Below, piece after piece: positions 5,465 to 31,672 of a DNA stretch of 64,000 nucleotides. Below the pieces are notes generated by a model that made no database searches, was not told the DNA's origin, and saw nothing but the letters and a program-made list of their open reading frames with translations. The translations under genes were made by a program, and so were the position numbers. The stretch comes from Verrucomicrobiaceae bacterium (lineage in GTDB: Bacteria; Pseudomonadota; Gammaproteobacteria; Pseudomonadales; CAMLJR01), in contig JAQGNY010000040.1 of assembly GCA_028293825.1 (NCBI GenBank), positions 1-64,000 on the forward strand. The letters are read 5' to 3'. How positions within the stretch are numbered: position 1 is the stretch's first letter; each line of letters starts with the position of its first letter.

Positions 5465-8400
5465 GGTTTGTCCTCCGCTTTGACAGCGTTTGCATCTGCC
5501 GCTTTTTGCTGCAATTTGTCGTCGAATACGCTGCGCAATTTTACTTTCGGATCAGCCCACGGCCCATTGATGTCGTATGCCGCGCTGGCGAATTTATCTA
5601 CCTGATTGGCAAAAATTTTACTCGCAACAAATACCCCGGCCGCAACCGGCAATCCGCCCGCCAGCGCCGCGACCCAGGGCAAATTGCTCGCCACTGGCAA
5701 GGTTGCTACCAATTCCATATCGGTTTGATCGGTGTTGAAATCGATTTGCCCGGCAACGCGAAACCGGCTCGACGGACTTTTAATTTCCAGCGGGTCCGCC
5801 GTCTTCAATACGCCATGCTGCATCGCAAAACTGCCTTTCATGTCGTCGAAGCTAACGCCATCTTTAAACACATCGGAAAAATCGAGCTGCAGTCGTTTTA
5901 AAAAATTCGCGAAATTAAAAATACCGACCACTTTTAAAGCGCCGGTCGCCGAGCTCGATGCTTTCAGAAAGCGGCCATCGTCGATGGTTAAGCGCGCGTC
6001 GCCTTCCGCCTGCGTGAATTTGAATTGATCCGGCGCACCCGGCCACTCCAAGGCGATATCGATTTCACCGCGCTTTGAAGTTAGCACTGGCTCGTAATGC
6101 CAGCGCTGCAATGCCACCGCCGCATCGTCCACCACCAGATGCGCATTGAATGAGCTGCGATCGACGCCATCGCGGCGCGTCCACGTCATGCTCGCCGGCT
6201 GCTCGCCGCGCGGACCGATGGTGACATCGCGCAACTGCCCGAATACATTTTCAATCCGCATCCCGTCCGCAATCGGGCGCAGTTGCATCGACAGCGAACC
6301 CCACTCTTCACCCCCGCGCGATAAATGCTCGATGCTGATATCGATCGGAATAATTTTGGTCGGATCGATTTGCTCCAGCGCCGAATGCGGCGTAGTGGTC
6401 GGCACTACCGGCTCCGCTGCGGCAGCGGGCAACCGCACGTAATTTAATTTCGCGATCCACGGTTGTTGCGCGCTATCGGGCACGCGCAAGTTGCCGGCCA
6501 ATTGCTGCGCGGCGAGACTCAATTGCCAGGCCTGCGCATCGCGATGCCCCGACAGCGCCAATGCGTTAAGCGTTTGCCCGCCGATCGTCACCGTATCGAA
6601 TTGCAGATCACGCACCGATAACGCCAGCGCGTTCGCGTCCTGCGGTTTGTCCGCGCCTGCCGCGGTGCGATCCTGCGCCATGACATCGCGCCACTCGTTA
6701 AAATCGAGCACCGGCACGCGGCCGGTCAGAATCATTTGCTGCGTCGAGAAATGCGTTCGGCCAGTTTTGCTGAGACGCAGCACACCGGCATCGACCTGCG
6801 CGTCGTCGTCCCAACGCAGCCGCAACTCAGCCCACTCGCCCAAGTCCGCCAGCAACTCGCGCTGCCCACCCAAACTCATGCTCACTTCCAGCGGTAGCAC
6901 CTGGTCGGCTGCTTTGTTATACGGCGGCGGCAAATGCAGCGTCACACCCTGTAAATCCGAATGCACGATCACTTCGCTGTTGTCGCCGGCAATGCGCAGT
7001 TTTGCCTCAAACGGTGTATCGCCGTCGGCGTAATCGAACAGCGGCTGCTGCAACCACGTTTTTAAATCGGCCATGCCGATGATGCCGGCCGCTTCAATAT
7101 TCAAATCGCCGTTGGTTTCGTTCGCGACTTTTAGTGTCAGCGGCTTGCCGTACCACTTGCCGTTTAGCGCCGGCGATTGCAAACCGTTTTCGGTGCTGTA
7201 ATTCAACGGTCCGCGCACATCGGTGAGCACGATGTGTTGATCGGTCAGCGTCAACGTGCCCGGCCCCAACTCGCTGTCGATATGCAGTTGCGACACGCGC
7301 TCACCGCCAATCGGAATACCGAGATCGAGTTTTGAATGGACGCTGCCGCGCCAGTGCCATTTATCGAGCGCACTGCCCAGCCGCTTATGCAGCGGACTTT
7401 CGTACAGCAGCTTCAACACGTCGTCGTCGGCGCCGGTCGCATCGCCGCGCACGGTCAGCCAACTGCCGCTGTCGGGATGATGCAGTTCGACATTGATATT
7501 GCTCAGCGCGATGCGATCAAGCACGCGCGCGCTCGGCGCCTGCACCAACACATCGCCGTCGTCGACCCACACGCCGGCGCGCAAGTTATGCAGCGGCGGC
7601 CATTCGGGCTGATACGCCAGCTCGCCATCGCGCACGTCGAGAAACAATTGCACGGTGTCATTTAGCGAATCCTCGCCACTAAGCGACCCGCGATAAATAA
7701 AGCCGCCGAGCAGTAATTTGCCGCCCTGAATCGAGCGATCCAGCCATTCGAGCAAGGTTGGCTGCAGCGTGTACGGCACGAAACGATTGCGATACTGCGC
7801 ATCGGAATTGCGCAAACCGACCATCAACGTCATCAGCGATGGGCCATGCTCAACCGGCAAATCCAGTGCGAATCGCGCCGTGGCGCTGCCGGCATCGCCT
7901 TCGACCGGAATCGGCCCGCTGTTCACCAGAATATGCTCGCCCTCAACGCGCCAGCCGATGCGTCCGCGCACACGATCAAAGCGCAGCGGCTCGTGATAGA
8001 CGTGCGGAAACTCCATCGCGAAACCATCGCTGACCAAATCGACCGCACCGCTGTGTAAACCGGCATCGATATAGCCGCCGCCACCTTCGACACCCGGCGC
8101 GCCGCCCCAAGGGCGCACGGCAATCTGTGCGAGCTCGGCGCGCAGTCGCAGCTGATCGGCCTTGAGTGGCAAATCGATCAGCACATTGCGCAATGCACCG
8201 CGTGCAGCCATCGTCGATAAAATATCGCGCAGATGCGCGGGCAGCTCATTGCTGGCAAGCAGCGCTTCACTCAACGGTGCGATCTGCAACTCCGGCAAAG
8301 CCACCCGATAAAAGTCCGGCCGCTCGGCGCTGGTACTAAACGCCAGCTGACGAAAATCGAGCTTGATATCGCTCCAGGTGCCGGTCAGTTGCGGCAACCA

Positions 8401-9336
8401 CAATTGGCGGCGGCCGGCTTCTTCGCGCAATAAAAACTCGGCTTTGATATCGGTCACCGGTGGCAAGGCGAGGTCGCTAAAGCCGGCGATATCAAGCTGC
8501 GGCAGCGCCGCTTTGCCGCGCACTTCGATAGCGCCGCCAGCGCGCCAATCGAGCCACACCGCGCCGTCGATAAAACCGTGCTGCAAATCGACGCCGAAGG
8601 CTTTTGCCGCCGGCAGTACCGGCGTTAAATCGACGCCGTGCAAATCGGCGTGACCGCGCGCGGTGAACTGTTTTTCATCACGCGGATCGCCGTGCGTTTC
8701 CACCACCAGCGTGAATGGCGCCGACTTCTCGGAAAAAGTCAGTGCTAAATTGATTCGGCGAAAATCGCCGGCACGCTGCAGCTGCAATGTTTTGCCGGCA
8801 ATTTGCGCGGTGGCACCGCCGACAAAATGCAAATCGATTTGCGAATCGGTCAATTGCGCGCGATAAATCGCCAGCAGCAAATCGAACAACGCATCGGTGT
8901 TGGTTTCGCCCTGCGCGACAAAGCCGGGCAAGTGCCAATGCCCGATCGGCACTTCTTCCAATTGCACGTGCACGCCGCGACCTTGCAGGCTGCTGATTGC
9001 CAACGTGCGCTCATTAATGCTGCGAAACAGACCGAGCTGCAATTCGACGTGATCGATTTGCACAACAATTTCAGCGGGATTTTGCGGGTTGTATAAGCGC
9101 AGATTGTCGATTACAAAATGCGGCGAGAGCTGCTGCCAACGTCCGCTTATATGACCGACGCTCAGGTGCAGACCAGTGCGCTTATTGAACGCATCGACCA
9201 CTTGCTGCTGATGCGTTTCCACGTACGGAATGTAATGCCGCCCCAAACTCACCACCAGCCCGACCACCAACACCGCACCGACCAGTACAGTCCACAGCAA
9301 ACGGTTGAGCCAAACCAGCGTTGTACGCGACAGCAT
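5461..9336 (-). CDS. yhdP: YhdP family AsmA-like intermembrane phospholipid transport protein
   Basis: The 1291-residue product has one N-terminal membrane helix (about residues 8-30) followed by a long beta-strand-rich periplasmic region and an AsmA-like C-terminus near residues 1130-1240. This is the YhdP architecture: a bridge-like protein that helps move phospholipids to the outer membrane, partly redundant with TamB and YdbH in Escherichia coli. Size is as expected. It lies in the conserved mreBCD-maf-rng-yhdP-nit order, 102 bp after rng. Confidence 0.94.
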   Translation of the reverse strand: MLSRTTLVWLNRLLWTVLVGAVLVVGLVVSLGRHYIPYVETHQQQVVDAFNKRTGLHLSVGHISGRWQQLSPHFVIDNLRLYNPQNPAEIVVQIDHVELQLGLFRSINERTLAISSLQGRGVHVQLEEVPIGHWHLPGFVAQGETNTDALFDLLLAIYRAQLTDSQIDLHFVGGATAQIAGKTLQLQRAGDFRRINLALTFSEKSAPFTLVVETHGDPRDEKQFTARGHADLHGVDLTPVLPAAKAFGVDLQHGFIDGAVWLDWRAGGAIEVRGKAALPQLDIAGFSDLALPPVTDIKAEFLLREEAGRRQLWLPQLTGTWSDIKLDFRQLAFSTSAERPDFYRVALPELQIAPLSEALLASNELPAHLRDILSTMAARGALRNVLIDLPLKADQLRLRAELAQIAVRPWGGAPGVEGGGGYIDAGLHSGAVDLVSDGFAMEFPHVYHEPLRFDRVRGRIGWRVEGEHILVNSGPIPVEGDAGSATARFALDLPVEHGPSLMTLMVGLRNSDAQYRNRFVPYTLQPTLLEWLDRSIQGGKLLLGGFIYRGSLSGEDSLNDTVQLFLDVRDGELAYQPEWPPLHNLRAGVWVDDGDVLVQAPSARVLDRIALSNINVELHHPDSGSWLTVRGDATGADDDVLKLLYESPLHKRLGSALDKWHWRGSVHSKLDLGIPIGGERVSQLHIDSELGPGTLTLTDQHIVLTDVRGPLNYSTENGLQSPALNGKWYGKPLTLKVANETNGDLNIEAAGIIGMADLKTWLQQPLFDYADGDTPFEAKLRIAGDNSEVIVHSDLQGVTLHLPPPYNKAADQVLPLEVSMSLGGQRELLADLGEWAELRLRWDDDAQVDAGVLRLSKTGRTHFSTQQMILTGRVPVLDFNEWRDVMAQDRTAAGADKPQDANALALSVRDLQFDTVTIGGQTLNALALSGHRDAQAWQLSLAAQQLAGNLRVPDSAQQPWIAKLNYVRLPAAAAEPVVPTTTPHSALEQIDPTKIIPIDISIEHLSRGGEEWGSLSMQLRPIADGMRIENVFGQLRDVTIGPRGEQPASMTWTRRDGVDRSSFNAHLVVDDAAVALQRWHYEPVLTSKRGEIDIALEWPGAPDQFKFTQAEGDARLTIDDGRFLKASSSATGALKVVGIFNFANFLKRLQLDFSDVFKDGVSFDDMKGSFAMQHGVLKTADPLEIKSPSSRFRVAGQIDFNTDQTDMELVATLPVASNLPWVAALAGGLPVAAGVFVASKIFANQVDKFASAAYDINGPWADPKVKLRSVFDDKLQQKAADANAVKAEDKP

Positions 9337-10929: not shown

Positions 10930-11531
10930 TTTTTTATATAGCCTTCGCCGATTCCATAGCGCCGCAGCTGCTCGGCTGTTTCGAACAATGGCAAACCCAC
11001 CACGCCGCTGTAACTGCCTTCGATACGCTCGACGAACACCGCCGCGCGCCCTTGAATGCCATACGCGCCGGCCTTGTCGCGCGGTTCACCGGTCAGCCAA
11101 TAAGCATCTATTTCGGCTGCACTCAACGGGCGAAACCACACCCGCGTGCGACTCATCGTCACCTGCACGCCATCTGTTCCGCAGACGGCAACGCCGGTCA
11201 GCACTTCATGCGCGCGACCCGCCAAGCGCTGCAATATTGCGCGCGCATCGTCGGCATCGGTCGGTTTACCGAGAATGATGTCATCGAGCACGACGGCGGT
11301 ATCGGCGCCCAATACGGGCAGCGGGGGCAGAGCGGCGTCGTGCAGATGCTGCCAGCCAGCGGCAGCTTTTTCGCGCGCGAGGCGCTGCACATACTGTTCG
11401 GCGCTTTCGTCGACCCTGCGGCTTTCGTCGATATCGATTTTAAGAGCGCGATGGGCGACGTCGATTTGGGTGAGCAATTCGCGCCGGCGCGGCGACTGCG
11501 AGGCGAGATAGAGCACGGCTTCCGCTGTCAT
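10926..11531 (-). CDS. maf: Maf family nucleoside triphosphate pyrophosphatase
   Basis: The 201-residue protein begins with the Maf signature LASQSPRRRELL and contains the conserved segments VLGADTAVVLD and AGAYGIQGRA. Family members hydrolyse dTTP/UTP or modified nucleotides as house-cleaning enzymes; this sequence resembles the YhdE branch next to mre genes. It overlaps rng by 4 bp and lies 29 bp after mreD, so it is part of the same operon. Confidence 0.94.
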   Translation of the reverse strand: MTAEAVLYLASQSPRRRELLTQIDVAHRALKIDIDESRRVDESAEQYVQRLAREKAAAGWQHLHDAALPPLPVLGADTAVVLDDIILGKPTDADDARAILQRLAGRAHEVLTGVAVCGTDGVQVTMSRTRVWFRPLSAAEIDAYWLTGEPRDKAGAYGIQGRAAVFVERIEGSYSGVVGLPLFETAEQLRRYGIGEGYIKK

Positions 11532-27082: not shown

Positions 27083-28675
27083 ATGAATGTCGTCGCCACC
27101 ACTGTTTTTGTCGCACTGTTCGCACTGGTTACCGTGCTGGGTTTTTTGGCTTCGCGCTGGAAACGCGCCGATCTCGATTCGCTGCACGAATGGGGATTAG
27201 CCGGTCGCCGCTTCGGCACCGTTATTACCTGGTTTTTACTCGGCGGCGATTTATTTACCGCGTACACATTTATCGCCTTGCCGGCATTAATTATGGGCAT
27301 CGGCGCCATCGGCTTTTTCGCGGTTCCGTATTCGATGCTGATTTATCCGTTCGCGTTCGTTATTTTTCCGCGCCTGTGGGCGGTCGCGCATAAACACGGT
27401 TACGTCACGCAAGCGGATTTTGTGCGCGCGCGTTACGGCAGTCCGTTTCTCGCGTTGCTCACCGCCATCACCGGTATTGTCGCGACGATGCCGTACATCG
27501 CGCTGCAATTAATCGGTATTCAAGTAATTATCGGTGCGCTCGGTTTCGAAGCCACCGGCTGGCTCGGCGAATTACCGCTGTTGGTCGCGTTCGGTATTCT
27601 CGCTGCATATACCTATTCGAGTGGATTGCGCGCGCCGGCGATGATCGCCGTGGTAAAAGATATTTTGGTTTACATCACCATTATCGCCGCGATGATTTTT
27701 ATTCCAGCGCAACTCGGCGGCTACGCAAAAATATTTTCCGCAGTGCCGGTAGATAATTTGCTGTTGAAAGTACCGACCGTCGATAGTGCTAACGGTTTCA
27801 GTAATTATTTAACGCTGACGATTGGGTCAATGCTCGCGATATTTTTATATCCGCACGCCACCACCGCGCTATTCAGCGCGTCGAGCGGCGACACCGTGCG
27901 CCGCAATATGATTTGGTTGCCGGCGTATTCCATCGTGCTCGGCATTCTCGCCATTTTAGGTTTTATGGCGTTATCGTCCGGCGTACAAAATCTGCCGGAA
28001 TACGCATCGGGCTTTAAACATTACGGCAAAAATTTCGCCGTACCCGCATTATTTCTGCACAGCTTTCCCGATTGGTTTGTCGGCGTTGCCTTCGCCGCCA
28101 TCGGCATCGGCGCATTAGTACCCGCCGCAATCATGTCGATTGCAGCCGCCAATTTATACACGCGCAATATTCACAAGGAATACATCAACCCAAAAACCAC
28201 ACCGGCGCAGGAAACCGAAATCGCAAAACTGGTTTCGCTGGTCGTAAAACTCGGCGCATTGGCTTTCGTATTTTTACTCGACAACCAATACGCATTGAAT
28301 CTGCAATTGCTCGGCGGCATCTGGATTATCCAAACCTTCCCCACCGTGATCACCGGCTTATACACCCGCTGGTTCGATCATCGCGGATTAGTCGCAGGCT
28401 GGATTGTCGGTATCGGCAGCGGCAGCTGGATGGCATTTCACGATGGTTTGAAATCATCATACACGCTGGATTTATTCGGCTATCACCTACCGGGTTACGC
28501 CGCGCTGTACGCATTTATTTTGAATTACACCGTCGCCGCAATCGTTACCGTCATCACCCGTGCAATGAAATTAAAAGTTACATCCGACGGCACGCAGCCA
28601 GAAGACTATGAAGACCAACCGGAGAGTTCGACATCGTTAAAACCGGATGCGCAGAATGTTGTTGCGGTGGAGTAG
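27083..28675 (+). CDS. mctP: Sodium:solute symporter, MctP-like monocarboxylate permease
   Basis: The 530-residue protein has about 13 membrane helices and the SSS family pattern, including WGLAGRRFGTVITWFLLGGD near residue 37 and GALVPAAIMSIAAANLYTRN around 350. MctP permeases take up lactate, pyruvate and related monocarboxylates, usually with a DUF3311 partner as here. The last 15 codons lie in an imperfect direct repeat found again at 31321, beyond the GNAT-PIN/ASCH genes, which suggests that the downstream DNA was inserted at this 3' end. Confidence 0.9.
   Translation: MNVVATTVFVALFALVTVLGFLASRWKRADLDSLHEWGLAGRRFGTVITWFLLGGDLFTAYTFIALPALIMGIGAIGFFAVPYSMLIYPFAFVIFPRLWAVAHKHGYVTQADFVRARYGSPFLALLTAITGIVATMPYIALQLIGIQVIIGALGFEATGWLGELPLLVAFGILAAYTYSSGLRAPAMIAVVKDILVYITIIAAMIFIPAQLGGYAKIFSAVPVDNLLLKVPTVDSANGFSNYLTLTIGSMLAIFLYPHATTALFSASSGDTVRRNMIWLPAYSIVLGILAILGFMALSSGVQNLPEYASGFKHYGKNFAVPALFLHSFPDWFVGVAFAAIGIGALVPAAIMSIAAANLYTRNIHKEYINPKTTPAQETEIAKLVSLVVKLGALAFVFLLDNQYALNLQLLGGIWIIQTFPTVITGLYTRWFDHRGLVAGWIVGIGSGSWMAFHDGLKSSYTLDLFGYHLPGYAALYAFILNYTVAAIVTVITRAMKLKVTSDGTQPEDYEDQPESSTSLKPDAQNVVAVE
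28629..28656 (+). repeat. Left copy of imperfect direct repeat flanking the AT-rich island
   Basis: This segment within the mctP 3' end begins CGACATCGTTAAAACCG and continues with GATGCGCA. It matches 31321-31347 at about 25 positions when two single-base gaps are allowed. The copies bracket the GNAT-PIN and ASCH genes. Confidence 0.6.
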
Positions 28676-28796: not shown

Positions 28797-30899
28797 ATGG
28801 AATACGCCATCCTAAAACAGTTTGACCAAGTTTCAGATTACGTTCGTCAAGTCTCCGCTATTGCGGATCAAAACAAAGAAGCTTTCGGCTTTTTGTCAGC
28901 TTCAGCTTACGAACAAATGGCTTCAAAGGGGCAGCTATGGGTTGCTGTCGATAATGCAAAAGAGCTTAAAGGCTACTTGATGTTTGGTGGCACTATGCCG
29001 ACTCTTAAGGTTTTTCAGGTTTATGCTTGTAAATCAGCTAAGGGGCATGGCATTGGTACGCAATTAATAGACGCATTAAAAGAATATGCTAGAGAAAAGT
29101 ACTACCACTCAATTGTTGCCAAAGTAGCTTCTGATTTATCTGCCAATAATTTTTGGGAGAGCAGAGGATTTTCAATCTACAGACAAGTTAAAGGTGGAAA
29201 AACAAAAAAACGAACAATAAATATCAGGGGATACCCGGTTTATGAAAATGATCTTTTTGGAAACTTAGCCAAAGAATCCACCGGCATCCAGCCCACCGGA
29301 CCAGTATTAGCACGCCCCATTTATGCCTTGGATTTGAACTTATTGCTCGATGTCTCTAAGGCCAGAGCGGGCTATAAGAAAGTCATAAAAATTATGCAAA
29401 TCGGCTTCCAAGGGGAATTTTTAATTTGCATAACACCGGAGTTTAAAAAAGAGCTTGAGCGCCAATCAGCCAACTTTTCTGATGATCCCATTTTAAGATT
29501 GGCTGAAGCGTTTCCAGTACTGAAGACTGATGATGATATTTCTGCTATTGCAGAATCCTTGAGAAACATTGTATTTCCTTCTCGAACATTAATCCGAAAG
29601 TCGGCACAGAATGATGAGTCTGATCTAATGCACTTGGCCTATTGTATATCGGCAGGCATAGGTGGATTTATTACACGCGAAAAAGCTTTATTGCGAGCCT
29701 GCAACGAGATCAAGGACAAACATGCCGTAGCAATTCTTTCGCCCGATGAGCTGATTTTGGAGGATAACGAGTCTTCGGATATTTCAACTCCGTTAAACTC
29801 CGATTTCTCATTTACAACCTCGTTGATAACTGATGAGGTCAAGAGTTTTCTTGATAGCTTCTCGGCACCAAAAGCAGTCACCGACGTACTGGTAGACACT
29901 TCCCCGACTAAAGATGCAACAAGTGTTTATGAGGCAAGATTGGACGGCTCTCTATTTGGAATTTATTTTTTCCAAAAACCAATGAAGACCACAAGCAGCG
30001 CCCTAGCTGCTTTGTATATAGATGAGAGCTGCCCGAAATCCACTGCTGCCATAGATCATTTCCTCGAAACGGCTTTTAGATATAAAAGTGGTTTTCCCTA
30101 TAGATTAGATTTGTACATAGGAAAAGGGCAAGATTCAACAGAAGAGACGCTCCTTAAAAAGGGTTTCTTTAAATCAGGCAATCACTTTGTAAAAATCATC
30201 AGCCATATCTTTTTAGAGGCCAAGAGCTGGCCTCGCTTCGCAAAAGATGTAAAGTCATTCTGTGGATTTTCCATCCCAGAAAAACTTCCGGCAAAGAAGG
30301 CGCTACAAAATACCGGCATTTTCTTTACTGATTCCAGTAATAAAATTCAGACATTTTCTTGGTTTGATTTTGAAACAATTGTCGGACCGAGATTTATACT
30401 AAACGCTGATAGAGACTGTATTCTCGTCCCCATCCAGGAAAACTATGCCGATGGATTAATAGGGAATGTCAGAAATCAGCTTTCCCTGCTATCAAGCCAC
30501 GACAAGACGCTTTTACTTGAAAAAGCGTATTTTCGCTCGACCGCCAAAGCATCCCTATTTAAAAGAGGAGGGGTTATTGCGTTCTATGTTTCTGGCAGTA
30601 AGAGCATTCAAGAACTCATTGGCTTTGCACGAATCACTTATTCAGAAGTAATTGACATCAATGAAGCGATTATTAAAGTAGATAGGCAAGGTGTTTTGTC
30701 TCGTCGAGAGCTCACCGAGTTCGCTGATAGCAACGAAAAAATACATGTTTTCACATTTGATAATTTTTTAGAATTTGATCAAAGAGTTTCTTTCTCAAAA
30801 GCGAAAGAACTTGGACTTATTAGCAGCGCAAATCTTGTTTCCCCTGAAAAAATAGATTTTGAAAAATTAAAAATCCTTATTGGAGAGGCTTTTAAATGA
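28797..30899 (+). CDS. Multidomain GNAT-PIN-ASCH-like protein of an accessory island
   Basis: The 700-residue protein combines domains not usually found together. Residues 1-145 form a GNAT acetyltransferase with the acetyl-CoA loop AKGHGIGTQL (81-90) and the closing ANNFWESRGF (116-125). Residues about 172-315 look like a PIN nuclease, with Asp179/Asp185, acidic residues around 215-219, Asp273/Asp276 and a Glu (295) where the last Asp is usual. Residues about 365-465 resemble a second, degenerate GNAT lacking the CoA loop. Residues about 538-660 resemble an ASCH/PUA-like RNA-binding fold. The ATG at 28797 has GAGG at 5-nt spacing; an ATG at 28755 is possible. It overlaps the next gene as ATGA and is visibly AT-richer than its neighbours. 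Function is unknown; RNA targeting is inferred. Confidence 0.8.
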   Translation: MEYAILKQFDQVSDYVRQVSAIADQNKEAFGFLSASAYEQMASKGQLWVAVDNAKELKGYLMFGGTMPTLKVFQVYACKSAKGHGIGTQLIDALKEYAREKYYHSIVAKVASDLSANNFWESRGFSIYRQVKGGKTKKRTINIRGYPVYENDLFGNLAKESTGIQPTGPVLARPIYALDLNLLLDVSKARAGYKKVIKIMQIGFQGEFLICITPEFKKELERQSANFSDDPILRLAEAFPVLKTDDDISAIAESLRNIVFPSRTLIRKSAQNDESDLMHLAYCISAGIGGFITREKALLRACNEIKDKHAVAILSPDELILEDNESSDISTPLNSDFSFTTSLITDEVKSFLDSFSAPKAVTDVLVDTSPTKDATSVYEARLDGSLFGIYFFQKPMKTTSSALAALYIDESCPKSTAAIDHFLETAFRYKSGFPYRLDLYIGKGQDSTEETLLKKGFFKSGNHFVKIISHIFLEAKSWPRFAKDVKSFCGFSIPEKLPAKKALQNTGIFFTDSSNKIQTFSWFDFETIVGPRFILNADRDCILVPIQENYADGLIGNVRNQLSLLSSHDKTLLLEKAYFRSTAKASLFKRGGVIAFYVSGSKSIQELIGFARITYSEVIDINEAIIKVDRQGVLSRRELTEFADSNEKIHVFTFDNFLEFDQRVSFSKAKELGLISSANLVSPEKIDFEKLKILIGEAFK

Positions 30900-31315
30900 T
30901 TGATGCAATTATCTCCATTAAACCAAGACATGTTGAAAACATCTTGTCGGGGAGAAAGACTGTAGAACTTAGGGCGAGAAGCATTAATTTACCTGCAGGC
31001 TCTCGGCTATGGATTTATACAACCCTTCCTGTTGGAAAAATAAGGCTATCTACGGAGATAAACTTCATCGAACTATTATCGCCGAGAGAAATTTGGAAAA
31101 AACACGGAAAGAGCATATGCATCCCAAAGAAAGAATTCGATGAGTACACACAAGGGCGTGATTTTGTAGCGGCTATAGGCCTGCGAAACATAAAGCCTTT
31201 AGACAACGATATTTGTTTGGATACAATGCGGAAATATCAGAAAAACTTCCAGCCGCCTCAATTCTTTTCAAAGCTCTATCCCGATCGGGCGCTGTACTCT
31301 GCATTTTATAAATAG
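30896..31315 (+). CDS. ASCH-domain protein coupled to the GNAT-PIN gene
   Basis: This 139-residue protein is a stand-alone ASCH domain (PUA-like fold) with the signature ISIKPRHVENILSGRKTVEL; Lys21 in G-R-K-T sits where the YqfB-type enzymes, which hydrolyse N4-acetylcytidine, carry a catalytic Lys. Whether this protein is an enzyme or only binds RNA cannot be told. Its ATG overlaps the TGA of the GNAT-PIN gene, so the two are translationally coupled and probably act together. Base composition is as AT-rich as its partner. Confidence 0.85.
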   Translation: MIDAIISIKPRHVENILSGRKTVELRARSINLPAGSRLWIYTTLPVGKIRLSTEINFIELLSPREIWKKHGKSICIPKKEFDEYTQGRDFVAAIGLRNIKPLDNDICLDTMRKYQKNFQPPQFFSKLYPDRALYSAFYK

Positions 31316-31672
31316 CTTTACGACGTCGTTAAACCGAGATGCGCAAAACACTACTGCAGCATATTAGAAGCAACAAATCATTGGTACTTTCTTCGCTCGA
31401 AAATTCAAAATTGCGAATATAGGTGGCACGGCCGGCGGGCGACCCATTCCTAACAGCTCCCCGTAGCGTGGATCCACAATTCAGAATGTAGTGCGCAATA
31501 ACCAAAGCGCACTTGTGCCCCGAATGGGGCAGCAGCATCACGATGAAATTCGATGCAATGTCGATAAGTCTTAACAAATTAAACAAGCAATCAAGTCTTG
31601 AGATTTGAACTCATCAAAATATCGCGAGCACTACTTAAGACCCAAGACTCAACCAGCCGCTAAGCACGAGCG
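31316..31672. other. Non-coding junction after the island
   Basis: This 357-bp stretch carries no convincing gene. It holds the right direct-repeat copy (31321-31347), a small hairpin GCCCC/GGGGC (31517-31530) and an attC-like sequence reaching the stop codon of the amidohydrolase gene. The G+C level changes along it, as at a recombination scar. Confidence 0.6.
31321..31347 (+). repeat. Right copy of imperfect direct repeat flanking the AT-rich island
   Basis: The segment starts CGACGTCGTTAAACCGAG and continues GATGCGCA-like, 5 bp after the ASCH stop. Read in the mctP frame, the sequence here gives TSLNRDAQNTTAAY and a TAG at the equivalent place, compared with TSLKPDAQNVVAVE and TAG at the true end of mctP. 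This suggests a remnant second copy of the mctP 3' end. Confidence 0.6.

Follow-up and report, generated by a model that had tools for sequence, protein, structure and literature searches.

A GNAT-PIN-GNAT'-EVE gene coupled to an ASCH gene, a candidate variant of the PDC-M11 and (PIN)-GNAT-EVE systems

Two overlapping genes, encoding a four-domain GNAT-PIN-GNAT'-EVE/PUA protein (A) and an ASCH protein (B), are carried by the window, that is, the whole 64,000-nucleotide stretch of DNA that was analysed. On balance, the pair is best read, with modest confidence, as an anti-invader module that moves horizontally and is built in the manner of toxin-antitoxin systems, as a variant of the (PIN)-GNAT-EVE + ASCH operons, which are also represented by PDC-M11. 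This reading is supported by the PADLOC matches of both proteins, the published operons that have a partner of this type and a defence setting, the ASCH partner at all nine loci of the long form, a natural fusion of the two protein types, the neighbouring genes, the occurrence of a low-G+C cassette in many hosts, the sparse spread, the contrast between kept and lost CoA loops, and the likeness of B to ZmASCH.

Gene A (28797..30899, forward strand) encodes 700 amino acids plus stop and was assigned to a long subfamily of PDC-M11A-type proteins from its open reading frame, aligned homologues and PADLOC; gene B (30896..31315, forward strand) encodes 139 amino acids plus stop and was assigned as an ASCH protein (PDC-M11B) by Pfam, PADLOC and a ZmASCH profile match. 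The coordinates of both open reading frames, and the ATGA at 30896-30899 by which they overlap, had been placed correctly by the first-pass annotation, which had also described the pair as richer in A+T than its neighbours. This holds, with G+C of 38-42% across A and B, about 51-56% directly outside and 58-60% further away, the neighbouring genes being at ~55-60%. An alternative, longer ATG start of A is located at 28647; because it would run into the upstream gene, and because the homologues aligned with A (from loci L002, L003, L004, L029, L030, L031, L021 and L027) begin at the methionine of 28797, the start was taken at 28797. Purifying selection acts on all of the domains (pN/pS about 0.12-0.31), and A and B are confirmed as a real gene pair and not a product of chance. 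One copy of A and one ASCH match are present in the source genome, and promoter and terminator scans gave counts at chance level. The upstream neighbour of A resembles MctP-type monocarboxylate symporters (~50% identity), and downstream of B an amidohydrolase-type protein, judged by eye, is encoded on the opposite strand. According to this low G+C and the metabolic neighbours on both sides, the pair is a foreign two-gene cassette within metabolic genes; it lies outside any defence island, and no defence gene was recognised by eye beside it.

The order GNAT, PIN, degenerate GNAT and ASCH/PUA within A, which had been proposed from the letters, was borne out by profiles and a partial structural model, with profile searches supporting the N-terminal GNAT and the PIN and the predicted fold alone indicating the middle GNAT. 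The N-terminal GNAT acetyltransferase domain (28797..29246, forward strand; residues ~1-150) matches Pfam Acetyltransf_1 above the cut-off (E 1e-8) and has an intact CoA loop at residues 82-87, K82-G-H-G-I-G87 (KGHGIG). It is followed by a PIN-like nuclease domain (29304..29771, forward strand; residues ~170-325), whose Pfam signal is weak in the window protein alone (E 0.11); among homologues, Pfam PIN_3 was matched with E 3.6e-5 in L021 and PIN with E 8e-4 in L031, and the region of A aligns with the PIN domains of PDC-M11A proteins (hhalign 91%, E 1e-6). The acidic metal-binding residues of the four PIN motifs are present in A as D179, E215, D273/D276 and E295, and these columns are kept in most of the aligned homologues. 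The first PIN catalytic aspartate is lost in the Calothrix homologue (L027), so that cleavage may be dispensable in some members.

The middle domain, GNAT' (29799..30341, forward strand; residues ~335-515), gave no signal against GNAT sequence profiles (hhalign 0.3%). In an AlphaFold model of residues 333-700, which is of moderate quality (pLDDT 58.5), it shows the strand and helix order of GNAT proteins without the CoA-binding loop, and it matches GNAT structures in the PDB with Z up to 8.2 and Foldseek E of 1e-3 to 1e-2, Z values near 8 for this model being only suggestive when taken alone. The AlphaFold prediction for the full length of A, made with four close homologues, was of poor quality (pLDDT 44) and was left out of all fold claims. 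On the predicted fold only, we accept that the middle domain has a GNAT fold, and it is probably inactive. The C-terminal EVE/ASCH/PUA-like barrel (30342..30896, forward strand; residues ~516-700) matches PADLOC PDC-M11A through its last ~160 residues (E 1e-13) and aligns with the EVE part of PDC-M11A (hhalign 98%, E 5e-14); its model is a PUA-superfamily barrel, for which the best Foldseek match is ZmASCH (E 1.4e-5) and the YqfB match has a Z of 8.1. Pfam EVE gave weak matches, confined to shorter relatives (E 0.0015-0.0095).

The main account of Bell et al. (2020; PMC7641849) describes proteins in which an EVE domain has been joined to a GNAT at its C-terminal end. Many of them also have a PIN at the N-terminus, an ASCH gene accompanies nearly all, and an AAA_17 gene is a frequent addition. 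The account predicts toxin-antitoxin or defence roles for such operons, reports their association with defence genes, credits Iyer et al. 2013 for the systems, and states that no module of them had been experimentally characterised. PADLOC lists the candidate defence system PDC-M11A/PDC-M11B, and in the literature searched for PDC-M11 and GNAT-EVE we found no experimental study and no phage, toxicity or enzyme data for any member. The remark of the first-pass annotation that no described system was known to have this architecture is thus wrong, in view of the PADLOC entry and of the (PIN)-GNAT-EVE + ASCH operons of that main account. The window pair and its subfamily share with these operons the PIN-GNAT-EVE order, the C-terminal EVE, the near-obligate ASCH and the association with defence genes, and with the PDC-M11 kind a PDC-M11A-type EVE/PUA C-terminus, a PDC-M11B-type ASCH in the operon and a PIN N-terminal to a GNAT fold. 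However, the subfamily differs in having an extra intact N-terminal GNAT, of which no mention was found in the passages of Bell et al. that describe these operons (PMC7641849), an inner GNAT without the CoA loop, an ASCH protein without HTH, and no AAA_17 gene, none of which adjoins the window pair. Compared with PDC-M11A, A is ~200 amino acids longer, and the PADLOC match covers neither its PIN nor its middle domain. An inner GNAT with an intact CoA loop, as in most of the known forms, is absent from the window subfamily; since the intact GNAT is N-terminal instead of inner, the pair is a variant and not a plain member of the PDC-M11 kind. The individual domain folds of A are also those of GNAT toxins (TacT/AtaT type) and VapC-type PIN toxins, whereas in A the domains are fused in one chain with readers, and a canonical small DNA-binding antitoxin is missing.

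The long form was found in nine loci, those of the window and the eight aligned homologues, at 20-78% identity to A. Their hosts range from Gamma- to Alphaproteobacteria and Cyanobacteria, and two copies are carried on plasmids, one of Caulobacter (L021) and one of Calothrix (L027, 4977-7112, on pCAL6303.01). The CoA loop of the N-terminal GNAT is kept in all nine proteins, while the G-x-x-x-G loop of the inner GNAT is found in none of them, compared with 20 of 22 PIN-GNAT-EVE or GNAT-EVE proteins. PADLOC PDC-M11A matched the other long homologues only at E 1e-8 to 1e-12. From these sequence comparisons, the nine-locus subfamily with an added intact N-terminal GNAT and an inner GNAT without the CoA loop appears to be new, and in the simplest reading catalysis would have moved to the newly fused GNAT, with the old domain kept as a scaffold. 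A bolder form of this idea, which we regard as tentative and rather doubtful, is that the long form is a defence subtype of its own. Here the N-terminal GNAT would have replaced the original as catalyst, acetylation would be essential to immunity, and the PIN would cut the nucleic acid or tRNA acetylated by its own chain, controlled by two PUA-type readers. As catalytic GNAT and GNAT' scaffold would be split within one chain, loop mutations in each of the two could show directly if acetylation is important.

GNAT toxins are known aminoacyl-tRNA acetylases, the N-terminal GNAT of A resembles RimI-type GNATs, and the overlapping two-gene layout is like that of toxin-antitoxin loci. These features would agree with a scheme proposed explicitly in the main account of Bell et al. 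(2020; PMC7641849), where GNAT acetylates aminoacyl-tRNA, EVE aims at modified tRNA, PIN degrades the acetylated tRNA and ASCH regulates expression, so that the long variant would fuse a toxin (the N-terminal GNAT) with its remedy (PIN). However, no GNAT-toxin-specific profile matched A, and a toxin and its remedy in one chain would be odd. B, as the other ASCH partners of the long form, is a plain ASCH protein without HTH, so a transcriptional role for ASCH is unsupported here, and we consider the scheme unlikely for this pair.

Protein B matches Pfam ASCH with E 4e-5 and PADLOC PDC-M11B with E 3e-22 over 90% of its length. The closest solved structure is that of ZmASCH (Zymomonas mobilis ZMO0922, PDB 5gus/5guq; profile E 5e-33), a protein that binds nucleic acid and has nuclease activity on single-stranded RNA (PMC5615036). 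Tyr47, Lys53 and Ser128 lie in the basic cleft of ZmASCH. Tyr47 and Gln127 of ZmASCH are kept in B as Y41 and Q122, while Lys53 and Ser128 are replaced by Gly47 and Phe123, and the equivalent of Tyr47 is kept in 17 of 17 B-type partners. By profile comparison, B-type proteins group closest with ZmASCH, and B is predicted to be a nucleic-acid binder, a link which gives an RNase structure that had been an orphan a place in a family of defence-like operons. A YqfB-like segment had also been suggested for B. The N4-acetylcytidine amidohydrolase YqfB uses Thr24 as nucleophile in a triad Lys21-Thr24-Glu74 with Arg26, and has the ASCH fold, the GxKxxxxR motif, Lys21 and Arg26 in common with B (PMC6972931). 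The nucleophile, however, is replaced by Glu24 in B, and glutamate occupies this position in all 17 partners, which makes deacetylation by B unlikely; the hint was not sustained, and B as a YqfB-like deacetylase was rejected.

Conservation of the two-gene order was evident among the homologues, with an ASCH gene directly downstream in nine of nine long loci. In addition, PIN-GNAT-EVE-ASCH was found in a single 638-aa open reading frame (L046:1234-3150, G089), a natural fusion in one genome that is good evidence for joint action of the A-type and B-type proteins; it also offers a single-chain form of the module. Shorter forms, already published, were recovered as well; they include PIN-GNAT-EVE with AAA_17 adjoining type I restriction-modification genes (L034), further AAA_17 genes in L022 and L037, HTH-ASCH partners carried by plasmids, among them rhizobial ones, and GNAT-EVE at 42 IMG/VR loci. 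GNAT-EVE genes that are close relatives of one from E. coli (L025) are common among IMG/VR contigs (L075-L116), which fits the published prophage association. A PDC-M11A C-terminus fragment in frame after an unrelated segment (L053:937-1863, G265) is probably a decayed or rearranged copy. We also identified a PDC-M11B-type ASCH gene after a type I operon of HsdM, HsdS and HsdR (L035:2920-9975, G403), with no recognisable GNAT-EVE gene beside it.

In known relatives, ASCH and PIN-GNAT-EVE genes have type I restriction-modification genes around them (L034, L035). This setting, and the presence of two PUA-superfamily readers in one module, would favour the proposal of Iyer et al. 2013, as reported in the main account of Bell et al. 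(PMC7641849), in which a DNA base acetylated by the GNAT labels DNA as self or as invader, the label is recognised by EVE and ASCH, and the PIN works together with RNA as its target or guide. BapA, a ZmASCH-like hydrolase that belongs to a defence operon and acts on modified DNA of phages (preprint PMC13160076), points in the same direction. However, restriction-modification genes do not adjoin the window pair. PIN domains are usually RNases, and we know of no acetylated DNA base in such systems; base modification is distinctly unlikely as the role of this pair.

At six of the eight comparison loci, a gene for defence, for a toxin-antitoxin system or for a nuclease was recognised nearby, a raw count taken without a control set. 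These neighbours are AbiEi/AbiEii, HipBA and PDC-M21 at L031, a DRT-class UG19 reverse transcriptase at L002, a SIR2 protein at L003, an HNH nuclease at L029, an Eco29kI restriction-modification system with a McrBC-like 5-methylcytosine restriction component at L027, and HNH and HipA at L021; no defence neighbour was recognisable by eye at L004 and L030. The distribution is patchy: of 398 genomes from the phylum, 3 have the long form, and of 369 from the class, 8 have a PDC-M11B match. Close relatives of the pair have a G+C of 39-42%, whereas the DNA around them is at about 50-67%. No relatives of A were found among INPHARED phages and IMG/VR contigs, and complete E. coli genomes contained no similar DNA. 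A pair with an ordinary role in RNA metabolism or housekeeping, outside any conflict, might be thought of, as ASCH and PUA domains are frequent in RNA metabolism and metabolic genes flank the window copy. However, the very patchy distribution, the base composition, which is foreign in all close relatives, the defence and mobile-element neighbours and the presence on plasmids make this the least likely explanation, and a very improbable one.

In the favoured anti-invader reading, A would be the effector, and its C-terminal EVE/PUA barrel together with the separate B may recognise one kind of nucleic acid, which is probably modified; BapA is a precedent for a ZmASCH-like protein with modified phage DNA as its substrate. 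The PIN of A would cut RNA, and the N-terminal GNAT is presumed to have an acetyl-CoA-dependent activity aimed at nucleic acid or charged tRNA, with GNAT' retained as a scaffold after its acetyltransferase role passed to the new domain. A and B probably form one complex, in which B would serve as co-reader or restraint, and once the trigger appears, RNA cleavage would halt translation or destroy invader transcripts. The metabolic setting of the window copy, L004 and L030 with their lack of defence neighbours, the weak PIN signal of the window protein and the loss of the first PIN aspartate in the Calothrix homologue count against this reading. The RNA-directed defence or toxin pair proposed in the first-pass annotation thus stands as a reading, given the ASCH partner in nine of nine loci and the frequent defence or toxin-antitoxin neighbours, in which an RNA target and a phenotype of defence are inferred. 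If true, the pair would encode an immune effector joining RNA cleavage and acetylation under PUA-type readers. The (PIN)-GNAT-EVE + ASCH systems have been predictions since 2020, crediting work of 2013, and the long variant could help to work out their function.

Mobility was also considered from repeats around the genes. In the window, a possible, diverged 47-bp direct repeat has its left copy (28629..28675) at the 3' end, the last ~15 codons, of the MctP-like symporter gene and its right copy (31321..31367) just after gene B, with the same stop-codon offset (TTSLNRDAQNTTAAY versus STSLKPDAQNVVAVE, each followed by the stop). The 28-nt core is identical at 26/29; strict scoring gave 0 of 200 shuffles, and lenient scoring gave 7 of 2000 shuffles and 49 of 1976 real controls, so the significance depends on the scoring. 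The repeat may mark integration at the 3' end of the symporter gene, which is suggestive only. In an empty-site test, no DNA of relatives matched the region, and the upstream symporter lacked a close orthologue among them. At L031 (G640), the homologous pair is flanked by a perfect 68-bp direct repeat (8289-8356 and 11405-11472), which suggests mobility; it has inverted-repeat ends (GGGGTCAAAGCC...GGCTCTGACCCC) and partial copies elsewhere in that genome, and the repeats are possibly the ends of an insertion element. At the same locus, a 150-bp direct repeat (6283-6432 and 8357-8506, 95% identical) brackets the HipBA genes beside the pair, as if defence cassettes were exchanged modularly at this site.
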